Assembly: GCA_018669795.1 (NCBI GenBank)
Contig: JABHSQ010000026.1
Location: forward strand, 62,001 to 126,000
Origin: Flavobacteriaceae bacterium
GTDB lineage: Bacteria > Bacteroidota > Bacteroidia > Flavobacteriales > Flavobacteriaceae
Reading direction: 5' to 3'
DNA: 64,000 nucleotides
Shown: positions 27,725 to 32,279 of the stretch, in pieces
How positions within the stretch are numbered: position 1 is the first letter of the stretch
How the letters are laid out: each line of letters starts with the position of its first letter
The notes under the pieces: generated by a model
Told to the model about the DNA's origin: nothing
The model's input: only the letters and a program-made list of their open reading frames with translations
Database searches by the model: none
Translations under genes and position numbers: made by a program

Positions 27725-30700
27725 ATGAGCAGAGCATTTAAAACATACCAAGGTCTAAACCTTCCAAAATTAGGAGAAGAAATACTCGAATTTTGGGAAA
27801 AAGAAAACGTCTTTGAAAAAAGTGTTTCTTCTCGCGAAGGAAAAACGCCTTATGTTTTTTTTGAAGGGCCTCCTTCTGCCAACGGCTTGCCAGGAGTACA
27901 TCATGTGCTAGCTCGTACAATTAAAGATATTTTTCCTCGATATAAAACCATGAAAGGCTTCCAAGTAAAGCGAAAAGCAGGTTGGGATACTCATGGGCTT
28001 CCCATAGAATTAGGCGTGGAAAAAGAATTAGGAATTACTAAAGAAGATATTGGTAAAACTATTTCAGTGGAGGATTATAATGCGGCTTGTAGAAAAGCAG
28101 TAATGCGTTATACAGGTATTTGGAATGACCTAACTAAACGAATTGGTTATTGGGTAGATATGGAAGATCCATATGTAACCTATGAGCCAAAGTATATGGA
28201 AACAGTTTGGTGGTTATTAAAAGAAATATACAACAAAGGATTACTGTATAAAGGCTATACAATTCAACCATATTCACCAAAAGCAGGAACTGGATTAAGT
28301 TCTCACGAGTTAAATCAACCTGGCACCTATCAAGATGTAACCGATACAACTGTTGTTGCTAAATTTAAAGCAATTAAAGATACCTTGCCAGACTTTTTAA
28401 AAATTTTGGATGGGGATATCTACTTTTTAGCTTGGACCACTACCCCTTGGACCCTACCCTCCAATACGGCTTTAACAGTTGGTAAAAAAATTGACTATGT
28501 GTTAGTTAAAACTTTTAATCAATACACTTTTGAGGCATCACAAGTAATTTTAGCTAAAAATTTAGTTGAAAAACAATTTTCAGGTAAGTTTGAAAATGTA
28601 GCATTAGTACAAGATTTATTTTCCTATGAAAAAGGAGCTAAAAAAATTCCTTATATCATTCTTAAAGAATTTAAAGGAGTTGATATTTTAGAATCTCGCT
28701 ACGAACAATTAATGCCGTTCACACTGCCTCATGACCAACCAGAAAATGCATTTAGAGTAATTCCTGGCGATTTTGTAACCATTGAAGACGGAACAGGAAT
28801 TGTTCATACAGCTCCAACTTTTGGAGCAGATGATGCTATTGTTGCAAAACAAGTAGAACCAGAAGTTCCACCTATGTTGCTAATGGATGAAAACCAAAAG
28901 TTAGTTCCTTTAGTAAATTTACAAGGTAAATTTAGACCAGAAATGATTGAATATGCTGGTAAATACGTAAAGAATGAATATTATGCTGATGGAGAAGCAC
29001 CAGATAAATCGGTAGATGTAGAGATTGCAATTCAATTAAAAACAGAAAATAAAGCATTTAAAGTTGAAAAATACACCCACAGTTACCCAAACTGTTGGCG
29101 TACTGATAAGCCAATATTATATTATCCATTAGATTCTTGGTTTATAAAAGTAACCGATTTTAAAGATCGAATGTTTGAGTTAAACCTTGGGGTTAATTGG
29201 AAACCTAAAGCTACAGGTGAAGGACGTTTTGGTAATTGGTTAGCAAATGCAAACGATTGGAACTTATCGAGGTCAAGGTATTGGGGTATCCCGCTTCCTA
29301 TATGGCGTACTGAAGATGGAAAAGAAGAGATTGCTATTGGTTCTATTGAAGAATTAAAAGGCGAAATGAAAAAAGCAGTGGATGCTGGATTCATGCAAAA
29401 AGACATTTTTGATGATTTTGTAACAGGAGATTTTTCGGAAGATAATTACGCAAAAGTAGACCTTCATAAAAACATTGTTGACGATATTGTATTGGTTTCT
29501 AAAAAAGGAAACCCTATGAGCCGTGAAGCCGATTTAATTGATGTTTGGTTTGATAGTGGAAGTATGCCTTATGCTCAATGGCATTATCCTTTCGAAAATA
29601 AAGAAAAAGTAGATACTACTTGGCGAAAAGCAGATTTTATTGCTGAAGGAGTAGATCAAACACGTGGTTGGTTTTATACGCTGCACGCTATTGCAACTAT
29701 GATTTTTGATGATGTTGCCTATAAAAATGTAGTTTCAAACGGATTGGTATTAGATAAAAATGGACAAAAAATGTCTAAGCGTTTAGGAAACGCAACAGAT
29801 CCTTTTGAAACAATCGATACATTTGGACCAGATGCTACTCGTTGGTATATGATAAGCAACGCCAACCCTTGGGATAACTTAAAATTTGATTTAGCAGGAA
29901 TTTCGGAAGTAAGAAATAAATTTTTTGGAACACTCTATAACACTTATAGTTTCTTTAGTCTGTATGCTAATTTGGATAATTTTAGTTATTCAGAAGCAGC
30001 TATTTCATTAGAGAAAAGACCAGAAATAGATCGTTGGATACTTTCAGAGCTACATACTTTAATCGAAAGAGTAGATCAATATTATAGTGAATATGAGCCA
30101 ACAAAGGCTACAAGAGCGATTTCAGATTTCGTTCAAGAAAATTTAAGTAACTGGTTTGTTCGTTTAAGCAGAAGACGTTTTTGGAAAGGTAGTTATGGCG
30201 AAGATAAAATATCGGCATATCAAACATTACACACCTGTTTATTAACGATAGCTAAGTTAAGCGCACCTATTGCTCCCTTTTTTATGGACCGCCTTTATAA
30301 TGATTTATTGAATGGAACTGTTAAATTTGATGAGATTTCGGTGCATTTAAGTAACTTTCCAACATCAGACTCGTCATATATTGACAGTGCATTGGAACAT
30401 AAAATGAAAAAGGCTCAAACAATATCTTCATTAGCGTTATCCTTACGCCAAAAAGAAAAGATTAAAGTTAGACAACCTTTACAAAAAATTATGATTCCTG
30501 TTTTAAATAATAAACAGCGTGAAGAAATAATAGCGGTTTCAGATTTAATTAAATCTGAAGTTAATGTGAAGGAAATTGAATTGATTGATGAAGGATCTGG
30601 AATATTAGTAAAACAGATAAAACCAGACTTTAAAAAGTTAGGGCCTCGCTTCGGAAAAGATATGAAATCTGTTGCACAAGTAATTACTAATTTTGGTCAA

Positions 30701-31129
30701 GAAGAGATTTCAATTCTTGAAAAAGAAGGAGAAATTAATGTTTTAATTAACAAAAAAAATACTACATTGTGCAAAGATGATGTAGTGATAAGTTCTCAAG
30801 ACATTGAAGGTTGGTTGGTTGCAAATAGTGACGGTGTTACGGTGGCTTTAGATGTGACCATTAGTACAGAATTAAAGAACGAAGGAATTGCTAGAGAATT
30901 GGTAAACCGAATTCAAAATTTACGTAAAGACTCTGGTTTTGAAGTAATGGATCGAGTTGAGGTAACTATTCAGGAAGATGAAAACTTAAAAGTTGCGGTA
31001 AACCAAAATTTAGAATATATTAAACGTGAAACGCTAACAGATGTTTTGTGTTTTTATCAAAAATTAGAGGAAGGAACTGAAATAATATTTGATGAAATAA
31101 CAAGCAAGTTAGCCATTAAAAAAATTTAA
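27725..31129 (+). CDS. ileS: isoleucyl-tRNA synthetase, type 2 with swapped GXHH signature
   Basis: 1134 residues. KMSKR is at residues 682-686, and the editing (CP1) domain and anticodon-binding domain are in normal order. The class I HIGH site reads LPGVHHVLA: Gly57-Val58-His59-His60 where LPHYGH-type HXGH is expected, so the first and third residues of the motif are exchanged. Length and the surrounding GPPSANGLP and WDTHGLPIE point to the IleRS2 (eukaryote-like, mupirocin-insensitive) group. It is the only IleRS gene in the window. The dksA-like gene starts 1 base after its stop, so translation is likely coupled. Confidence 0.97.
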   Translation: MSRAFKTYQGLNLPKLGEEILEFWEKENVFEKSVSSREGKTPYVFFEGPPSANGLPGVHHVLARTIKDIFPRYKTMKGFQVKRKAGWDTHGLPIELGVEKELGITKEDIGKTISVEDYNAACRKAVMRYTGIWNDLTKRIGYWVDMEDPYVTYEPKYMETVWWLLKEIYNKGLLYKGYTIQPYSPKAGTGLSSHELNQPGTYQDVTDTTVVAKFKAIKDTLPDFLKILDGDIYFLAWTTTPWTLPSNTALTVGKKIDYVLVKTFNQYTFEASQVILAKNLVEKQFSGKFENVALVQDLFSYEKGAKKIPYIILKEFKGVDILESRYEQLMPFTLPHDQPENAFRVIPGDFVTIEDGTGIVHTAPTFGADDAIVAKQVEPEVPPMLLMDENQKLVPLVNLQGKFRPEMIEYAGKYVKNEYYADGEAPDKSVDVEIAIQLKTENKAFKVEKYTHSYPNCWRTDKPILYYPLDSWFIKVTDFKDRMFELNLGVNWKPKATGEGRFGNWLANANDWNLSRSRYWGIPLPIWRTEDGKEEIAIGSIEELKGEMKKAVDAGFMQKDIFDDFVTGDFSEDNYAKVDLHKNIVDDIVLVSKKGNPMSREADLIDVWFDSGSMPYAQWHYPFENKEKVDTTWRKADFIAEGVDQTRGWFYTLHAIATMIFDDVAYKNVVSNGLVLDKNGQKMSKRLGNATDPFETIDTFGPDATRWYMISNANPWDNLKFDLAGISEVRNKFFGTLYNTYSFFSLYANLDNFSYSEAAISLEKRPEIDRWILSELHTLIERVDQYYSEYEPTKATRAISDFVQENLSNWFVRLSRRRFWKGSYGEDKISAYQTLHTCLLTIAKLSAPIAPFFMDRLYNDLLNGTVKFDEISVHLSNFPTSDSSYIDSALEHKMKKAQTISSLALSLRQKEKIKVRQPLQKIMIPVLNNKQREEIIAVSDLIKSEVNVKEIELIDEGSGILVKQIKPDFKKLGPRFGKDMKSVAQVITNFGQEEISILEKEGEINVLINKKNTTLCKDDVVISSQDIEGWLVANSDGVTVALDVTISTELKNEGIARELVNRIQNLRKDSGFEVMDRVEVTIQEDENLKVAVNQNLEYIKRETLTDVLCFYQKLEEGTEIIFDEITSKLAIKKI

Positions 31130-31130
31130 A

Positions 31131-31511
31131 ATGAAACAAGGAACATACGACAGATATTATGATGCGGATTTAGAAGAATTCAAGCAACTAATCCTTGAAA
31201 AAATCAAAAATGCACAAAAACAATTAGAATTAATTGAAAGTGCTTTTAAAAACGATAGCGATAACGGAACCAATGATACCTCACCAACGTTTAAGGCTTT
31301 TGATGAAGGAAGTCATGTAATGAGTAAAGAAGCAAATGCTCAATTAGCTATACGTCAAGAAAAATTTATTCGCGATTTAAAAAATGCATTGATCCGTATA
31401 GAAAATAAAACCTACGGAGTTTGTCGTGTAACAAAAAAATTAATTAATAAAGAACGGTTAAAATTAGTTCCTCATGCCACTCTTAGTATGGAAGCTAAGA
31501 ATATGCAATAG
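31131..31511 (+). CDS. DksA/TraR-family protein with degenerate zinc finger
   Basis: 126 residues: an N-terminal coiled-coil-like helical part (EEFKQLILEKIKNAQKQLEL) and a C-terminal domain with the DksA frame YGVCRVTKKLINKERLKLVPHATLSMEAK read as two short pieces, YGVCRVTKKLI and RLKLVPHATLSMEAK. Only one of the four zinc-finger cysteines is kept. DksA-type proteins enter the RNA polymerase secondary channel and tune rRNA and stress transcription. The ileS-dksA-like-lspA order is frequent in flavobacteria from memory. Confidence 0.87.
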   Translation: MKQGTYDRYYDADLEEFKQLILEKIKNAQKQLELIESAFKNDSDNGTNDTSPTFKAFDEGSHVMSKEANAQLAIRQEKFIRDLKNALIRIENKTYGVCRVTKKLINKERLKLVPHATLSMEAKNMQ

Positions 31512-31628: not shown

Positions 31629-32279
31629 ATGATGTCTCTTAAAAAATCCATATTTATTATATTTTTGATCTTAGTAATCGATCAGATTTCAAAAATATAC
31701 ATTAAAACTCATTTTGTATTAGGTGAAAGTATACCTGTTTTTGAATGGTTTAAAATTGCCTTTGTAGAAAACGAAGGAATGGCTTGGGGAGCTAAAATTC
31801 CTGGCAAATACGGAAAATTAACACTTACCCTTTTTAGGTTAATTGCTATTGTTGGTATAGGCTATTGGCTATGGGATTCCATAAAAAAGAAACATTCTAA
31901 AATACTGATTGTTTCTATTGCATTAATATTTGCTGGAGCATTTGGTAATATTATTGACTCTGTATTTTATGGAATTATTTTCAACGAAAGTCATCTGCAA
32001 ATTGCGACTATATTTCCTCCAGATGGAGGCTATGGCACTTTATTTCATGGGAAAGTGGTAGACATGTTGCATTTTCCATTATGGGAAGGATTTTTACCAA
32101 AATGGCTGCCTTATTGGGGAGGAAATTACTTCACTTTTTTCGATCCCGTATTTAATATTGCAGATATGTCTATTAGTACCGGTTTTGGAATATTATTAGT
32201 TTTTAGCAATAAGGCTTTTCCCAAACCAGAAAATGAGGTCCGTGTTTCCTCTTCAAATTCAGAAGAAAAAGATTCTTAA
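31629..32279 (+). CDS. lspA: lipoprotein signal peptidase (signal peptidase II)
   Basis: 216 residues against about 160 in E. coli. The catalytic aspartates are Asp145 in KVVDMLHF and Asp179 in NIADMSIS. Between GNIIDSVFYG (residues 106-115) and the first catalytic Asp there is an extra stretch of roughly 30 residues, and a hydrophilic tail follows the last membrane helix. It removes signal peptides from prolipoproteins in the inner membrane; several lipoproteins in this window (gldH, M13, DUF5689, M23 and others) would be clients. An ATG one codon later is equally possible. Confidence 0.94.
   Translation: MMSLKKSIFIIFLILVIDQISKIYIKTHFVLGESIPVFEWFKIAFVENEGMAWGAKIPGKYGKLTLTLFRLIAIVGIGYWLWDSIKKKHSKILIVSIALIFAGAFGNIIDSVFYGIIFNESHLQIATIFPPDGGYGTLFHGKVVDMLHFPLWEGFLPKWLPYWGGNYFTFFDPVFNIADMSISTGFGILLVFSNKAFPKPENEVRVSSSNSEEKDS

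Follow-up and report, generated by a model that had tools for sequence, protein, structure and literature searches.

A subset of type 2 isoleucyl-tRNA synthetases (IleRS2) in which the first and third residues of the class I signature HXGH are exchanged, giving GXHH or AXHH, was described in 2023 as catalytically competent and linked to mupirocin inhibition constants (Ki) in the millimolar range (PMC10485003). According to the available text of that paper, its tree comprises 86 G/AXHH and 77 HXGH IleRS2, and the naturally exchanged enzyme of Streptomyces griseus has a Ki of 10 mM, while conversion of ALHH to HVGH in Deinococcus radiodurans IleRS2 lowered the Ki from 6.6 mM to 8.1 µM. Introduction of GVHH raised the Ki from 0.20 to 35 µM in Thermus thermophilus IleRS2 and from 1.08 to 460 µM in Priestia megaterium IleRS2 (PMC10485003). 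Since engineered GVHH enzymes reach 35 or 460 µM whereas natural G/AXHH enzymes reach 6.6 or 10 mM, the strength of resistance cannot be read from the motif alone. Following the P. megaterium IleRS2 structures reported in the same 2023 paper (PMC10485003, available text), the displaced tip of helix α1 in IleRS2 leaves room for ATP, so that an exchanged motif still permits formation of Ile-AMP, and the bulky His replacing Gly at the third motif position clashes with mupirocin.

Here, we analyzed a 64,000-nt stretch of DNA (the window) from contig JABHSQ010000026.1 of a Flavobacteriaceae bacterium (GCA_018669795.1), which encodes an IleRS that resembles the S. griseus and D. radiodurans enzymes in being of type 2 and in having the first and third motif residues exchanged. 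Its closest solved relatives are chains that we take to be P. megaterium IleRS2, an enzyme that naturally carries HVGH and coexists with an IleRS1, unlike the sole GVHH enzyme of the window. MupA and MupB are also related; MupA is described in that literature as sitting on staphylococcal plasmids, whereas the window gene is the only ileS of its genome. IleRS1, as in Escherichia coli and Staphylococcus aureus, performs the same reaction with the same class I core, but the E. coli enzyme keeps HIGH, has a C-terminal zinc finger and is 27.7% identical to the window IleRS. Striking as this newly described route to resistance is, the case presented here is ordinary for its phylum.

An IleRS2 with an exchanged class I signature

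The ileS reading frame is intact and begins with ATG (Table 1), and its product scored 979.2 bits against the IleRS family TIGR00392 (cut-off 621.4 bits). The codons GGA GTA CAT CAT specify Gly-Val-His-His, and the surrounding segment, GPPSANGLPGVHHVLARTIKD, pairs without gaps with a stretch of P. megaterium IleRS2. In the PDB alignments GVHH is matched to HVGH both in 8c8u (P. megaterium IleRS2) and in 1ile, the latter taken to be T. thermophilus IleRS. Among six reference loci compared by blastp, the same column holds HIGH in E. coli K-12 and Halomonas, HAGH in Sutcliffiella, HYGH in Microbacterium, and GIHH in the two Bacteroidota references, Riemerella and Bacteroides. Codons and alignment column therefore agree that GVHH stands where class I synthetases have HXGH, as the original prediction had read it; an H-x-G-H elsewhere in the chain, named there as counter-evidence, did not appear anywhere in the 1134 residues. 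With G/A-X-H-H in place of HXGH, the window IleRS belongs to the published GXHH class. In the same genome, frames that we read as ValRS-like and LeuRS-like, names given from inspection of the frames and not from a family search, have HMGH and HVGH, respectively. All 15 same-genus relatives with a full-length match share GXHH, as do the cut fragments of two more, and GVHH is therefore not an error of one assembly.

Table 1 Features of the ileS locus, in window coordinates
Feature	Position	Strand	Evidence
ileS, type 2 isoleucyl-tRNA synthetase (IleRS2), 1134 aa	27725..31129	+	ORF; TIGR00392; PDB relatives
Class I signature, exchanged form GVHH, residues 57-60	27893..27904	+	sequence; HXGH-column alignments
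Residues 58-76, co-switching positions 58, 62, 71, 76 (window: V, L, P, M)	27896..27952	+	sequence comparison
Second class I signature KMSKR, residues 682-686	29768..29782	+	sequence
Anticodon-binding domain PF08264, residues 769-921	30029..30487	+	Pfam
C-terminal DUF5915 PF19302, residues 940-1133	30542..31123	+	Pfam
TraR/DksA-type zinc-finger gene, directly downstream of ileS	31131..31511	+	PF01258
lspA, lipoprotein signal peptidase	31629..32279	+	PF01252, 122.3 bits

The assignment to type 2 was supported by structure-derived sequences, domain content, a clade motif and phylogeny. The best PDB chains were 8c8w, 8c8u, 8c8v and 8c9d (778-791 bits, over residues 18-1108), the top one of which, 8c8w, itself has GVHH. 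We assign these chains to P. megaterium IleRS2 on the strength of 8c9d, whose residue at chain position 130 is Q, in keeping with the W130Q mutant that PMC10485003 names. By comparison, S. aureus IleRS1 scored 275 bits (1ffy, in a row that includes 1qu2, the latter named as an S. aureus IleRS1 complex in PMC10485003), and 8c9e and 8c9f, taken to be P. megaterium IleRS1, scored 298 and 306 bits. Pfam detected tRNA-synt_1, Anticodon_1 and DUF5915 in the window protein and no zf-FPG_IleRS; DUF5915 is shared by the Sutcliffiella IleRS and missing from E. coli IleRS1, which carries the zinc finger. The combination of DUF5915 with absence of the IleRS1 zinc finger, a criterion of our own with one control for each type and with the type of the Sutcliffiella control itself inferred, again points to IleRS2. 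So does HYPFE, given in the available text of PMC4861432 as a motif of the eukaryote-like IleRS clade and present in the window protein as H620 Y621 P622 F623 E624. In a tree of 46 rows, whose references from outside Bacteroidota were one IleRS2-like sequence and two IleRS1, all 42 Bacteroidota rows stood with the Sutcliffiella enzyme apart from the two IleRS1 (SH-aLRT 100), at a split for which the program warns of long branches meeting. The protein is thus closer to IleRS2 than to IleRS1 by PDB scores, and the tree, with its long branches, agrees; the placement in IleRS1 that had been named as grounds for rejection was seen in neither. The prediction had also tied a GXHH subset of IleRS2 to mupirocin hyper-resistance, a connection borne out by the available text of PMC10485003. 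Against the NCBIfam models the protein scored 777.3 bits for MupB and 737.1 bits for MupA, far below the cut-off of 1900 bits, and it is accordingly not assigned to either.

As a separate observation, the second class I signature KMSKR was also found in 80 of 80 named-record loci (the best 80 of at least 591), and the loci read in the phylum draw described below have KMSKS in 138 of 194 and KMSKR in 44 of 194. An AlphaFold model of the window IleRS had a mean pLDDT of 60.6, with values below 50 at residues 42-65 and 67-95, and its catalytic domain is unreliable.

A sole ileS in a shared gene neighbourhood

The genome of the window (2,246,925 bases, 28 contigs, 99.12% complete) was searched with the IleRS family, and among all nine candidates scored one ileS exceeded the cut-off. 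The other seven matches, in three other places, scored at most 205.8 bits, the value of the next best, which lies in the ValRS-like frame. The prediction that the window holds no second ileS consequently extends to the whole genome.

The gene directly downstream scored 23.3 bits against PF01258, just below the Pfam cut-off of 24.9. On its downstream side, ileS is followed within 300 nt by a homolog of this TraR/DksA-type gene in each of the 80 named-record loci and in 26 of the 27 loci from relatives; with the limit set at 1200 nt, LspA was detected downstream in 54 of the named-record loci. The records of Riemerella and Bacteroides show the gene order ileS, TraR/DksA (annotated as such) and lspA. 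The setting is that of a housekeeping gene, and together with the sole-copy status in a nearly complete genome it upholds the earlier description of the gene as the housekeeping ileS.

Three ileS records are filed under plasmids. In a Riemerella anatipestifer 'plasmid' (NZ_CP081938.1, L232) the gene adjoins TraR/DksA, lspA and also lepA, and in Bacteroides finegoldii 'plasmid 21' (NZ_OY725923.1, L233) it adjoins TraR/DksA and lspA; these two may be mislabelled pieces of chromosome, or may represent essential genes on a second replicon. The third (L234), IleRS2-like and with HAGH as its motif, is on Sutcliffiella horikoshii plasmid pBH-BAT-167 (1459-4548); roughly 1.2 kb away lies a gene whose annotation is CBASS phospholipase.

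Distribution of GXHH over the phylum

The distribution of the motif was followed in a draw of 198 genomes, each at least 90% complete, from 103 genera and 39 families, with 149 of the 198 lying outside the window's class. Judging from the named close relatives, we regard the drawn phylum as Bacteroidota, in GTDB's wide sense of the name. Exactly one ileS exceeded the cut-off in 197 of the 198 genomes (E 1e-150, four best candidates per genome scored), and a recheck of 24 and another 23 drawn genomes, in which every candidate was scored (E 1e-100), again gave one ileS each. The remaining genome (G176) has an N-terminal ileS piece only, at a contig end; in another (G190) the gene lies in two pieces of one frame, of which the first half (L169) was read and the second (L170) dropped.

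All 197 readable genomes, covering every one of the 39 families, have GXHH in ileS (56 GVHH, 139 GIHH, 1 GMHH and 1 GLHH), and HXGH was found in none of them. These figures combine 194 loci read by script (54 GVHH, 138 GIHH, 1 GMHH, 1 GLHH) with one locus read from its translation (L247, GVHH), the window's own genome (GVHH) and G012 (GIHH), which occurs in both draws and was counted once. L247, the only ileS match of the draft genome G067, has an in-frame TAG, either a sequencing error or a real stop. Closer to the window, 28 of 30 relatives gave a full match, all 28 with GXHH, and the fragments of the other two read GVHH. GXHH was likewise present in all 80 named-record loci of Flavobacteriaceae and near relatives (the best 80 of at least 591), a set picked by similarity that may overlap the drawn genomes (L086 and L226 have the same sequence beyond their N-terminal part).

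Given its presence in every readable genome, GXHH was therefore inherited from a deep ancestor of the phylum, of which it is the normal state as far as the genomes were read. We consider it very probable that the window gene is the cell's only, housekeeping IleRS2 and that GXHH is the ordinary, inherited state of the phylum. Among the titles and abstracts searched, none attributes GXHH to Bacteroidota at the level of the phylum. In the text available, 'bacteroid' and 'flavobact' occur zero times in the main text of PMC10485003, and 'bacteroid' zero times in PMC4861432, although the tree of PMC10485003 may well include Bacteroidota sequences.

Origin and consequences of the exchange

The original prediction had presented the motif as remarkable in this flavobacterium and perhaps adaptive in the face of marine mupirocin makers. 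This part does not stand, because GXHH occurs in the single ileS of every readable phylum genome and the gene neighbourhood is shared with Riemerella and Bacteroides; the motif says nothing about the antibiotic exposure of this organism. A recent adaptation in a marine lineage, in which selective pressure from makers of mupirocin or thiomarinol led to a swap of the motif or to acquisition of the gene, could draw on the marine-origin genes for thiomarinol, a mupirocin relative, mentioned in PMC8159325, and on residues behind the motif that differ between the window's lineage and its nearest relatives. It is contradicted by the same exchange in 197 of 197 readable genomes from all 39 families drawn and by the ileS gene order common to Riemerella and Bacteroides, and we rejected it as very unlikely on account of the phylum-wide motif. 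A degenerate or non-aminoacylating paralog with a decayed signature would be in line with the severe effect that losing the first His of HXGH usually has (PMC10485003), but the intact reading frame, the status as sole ileS in the genome and the identical kind of exchange in all 197 genomes led us to dismiss this reading, whose probability we consider close to nil.

A further rival concerns the cause alone and not the identity of the enzyme: something other than mupirocin may have fixed the exchange early in the history of the phylum, whether drift in an IleRS2 active site that tolerates it or a property of catalysis or editing, with drug insensitivity as a side effect. The retention of GXHH in every readable genome across 103 genera would be consistent with such a history, as would the kcat of the natural ALHH IleRS2 of D. 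radiodurans, 45.5 per s versus 24.4 per s for its HVGH mutant. However, the natural enzyme has a KM for Ile of 44 µM versus 17.9 µM in the mutant, so that its efficiency is not better, and in two other IleRS2 the change to GVHH lowered kcat (PMC10485003, available text). On balance, early fixation unrelated to mupirocin is a tenable explanation to which we give slightly less than an even chance.

Read as the inherited housekeeping IleRS2 of its phylum, the window enzyme adds a point of distribution, namely that across a phylum GXHH can be fixed in the one housekeeping IleRS, and the idea of each GXHH IleRS as a local response to mupirocin producers is therefore weakened. By analogy with the published enzymes, it would be catalytically competent and bind mupirocin weakly, with the 35 µM case leaving a wide range for how weakly. 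At the level of the phylum, GXHH predicts intrinsic mupirocin insensitivity of Bacteroidota. The literature searched yielded no activity or drug assay for the window IleRS or any Bacteroidota IleRS and, in the texts available, no mupirocin MIC values for Bacteroidota; no enzyme of the phylum appears in the kinetic table of PMC10485003 as available, and no mupirocin MIC for Flavobacteria was found in the available text of PMC7564983. A figure in PMC4861432 groups MIC values according to the type of IleRS, and the gene table of PMC10835994 has an entry 'isoleucyl-tRNA synthetase / mupirocin' for Ornithobacterium hominis.

Residues switching together behind the motif

The 116 sequences that are at least 66% identical to the window protein divide evenly at residue 71, with 58 carrying P and 58 carrying C. 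Every P71 row has M at residue 76, and the C71 rows have Q (55) or L (3) there; neither P71/Q76 nor C71/M76 occurs in the set. Residues 58 and 62 vary likewise in these sequences, V58 going with L62 and I58 with M62, I62 or, in rare cases, L62, and the combinations observed at 58/62/71/76 include VLPM, IMCQ and IMPM. By normalized mutual information, a measure that ignores kinship, the pair 71-76 ranks second and 58-62 eighth of 115,921 column pairs. The spacings of four and five residues would fit packing along a helix. In the window's genus, the window and 11 of 15 relatives have VLPM, one (L142) has ILPM and three (L123-L125) have IMCQ.

Trees computed from the protein minus its N-terminal part show 11 changes of P71/C71, and still at least 8 or at least 6 once branches with support under 95 or under 99, respectively, are collapsed; on a three-state FastTree tree the number was 12. 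The coupling of 71 and 76 is local to Flavobacteriaceae, since C71 with M76 is common outside this family, and it is not tied to GXHH, since 1ile has P and M at these positions together with HVGH. A composite picture, which we offer tentatively and would not back at even odds, is that the whole of Bacteroidota may depend on a single IleRS with the swapped motif and so be intrinsically hyper-resistant to inhibitors of the mupirocin kind, through an ancestral fixation that possibly had nothing to do with the drug, the 58/62 and 71/76 helix having been repeatedly remodelled in Flavobacteriaceae.

Short-tract recombination was considered as a source of the combinations at 58/62/71/76. Over codons 57-78, silent identity is 0.563 within VLPM and 0.560 within IMCQ versus 0.543 between them, and with within-state values hardly above the between-state value there is no clear sign of a recent tract exchange; an old exchange may have occurred, since silent sites stand at about 0.5 identity throughout. 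For the window's clade, the silent identity of the tract is 0.586 to other VLPM rows versus 0.514 to its IMCQ sisters, with the flanks leaning the same way as the tract and other IMCQ rows reaching 0.578.
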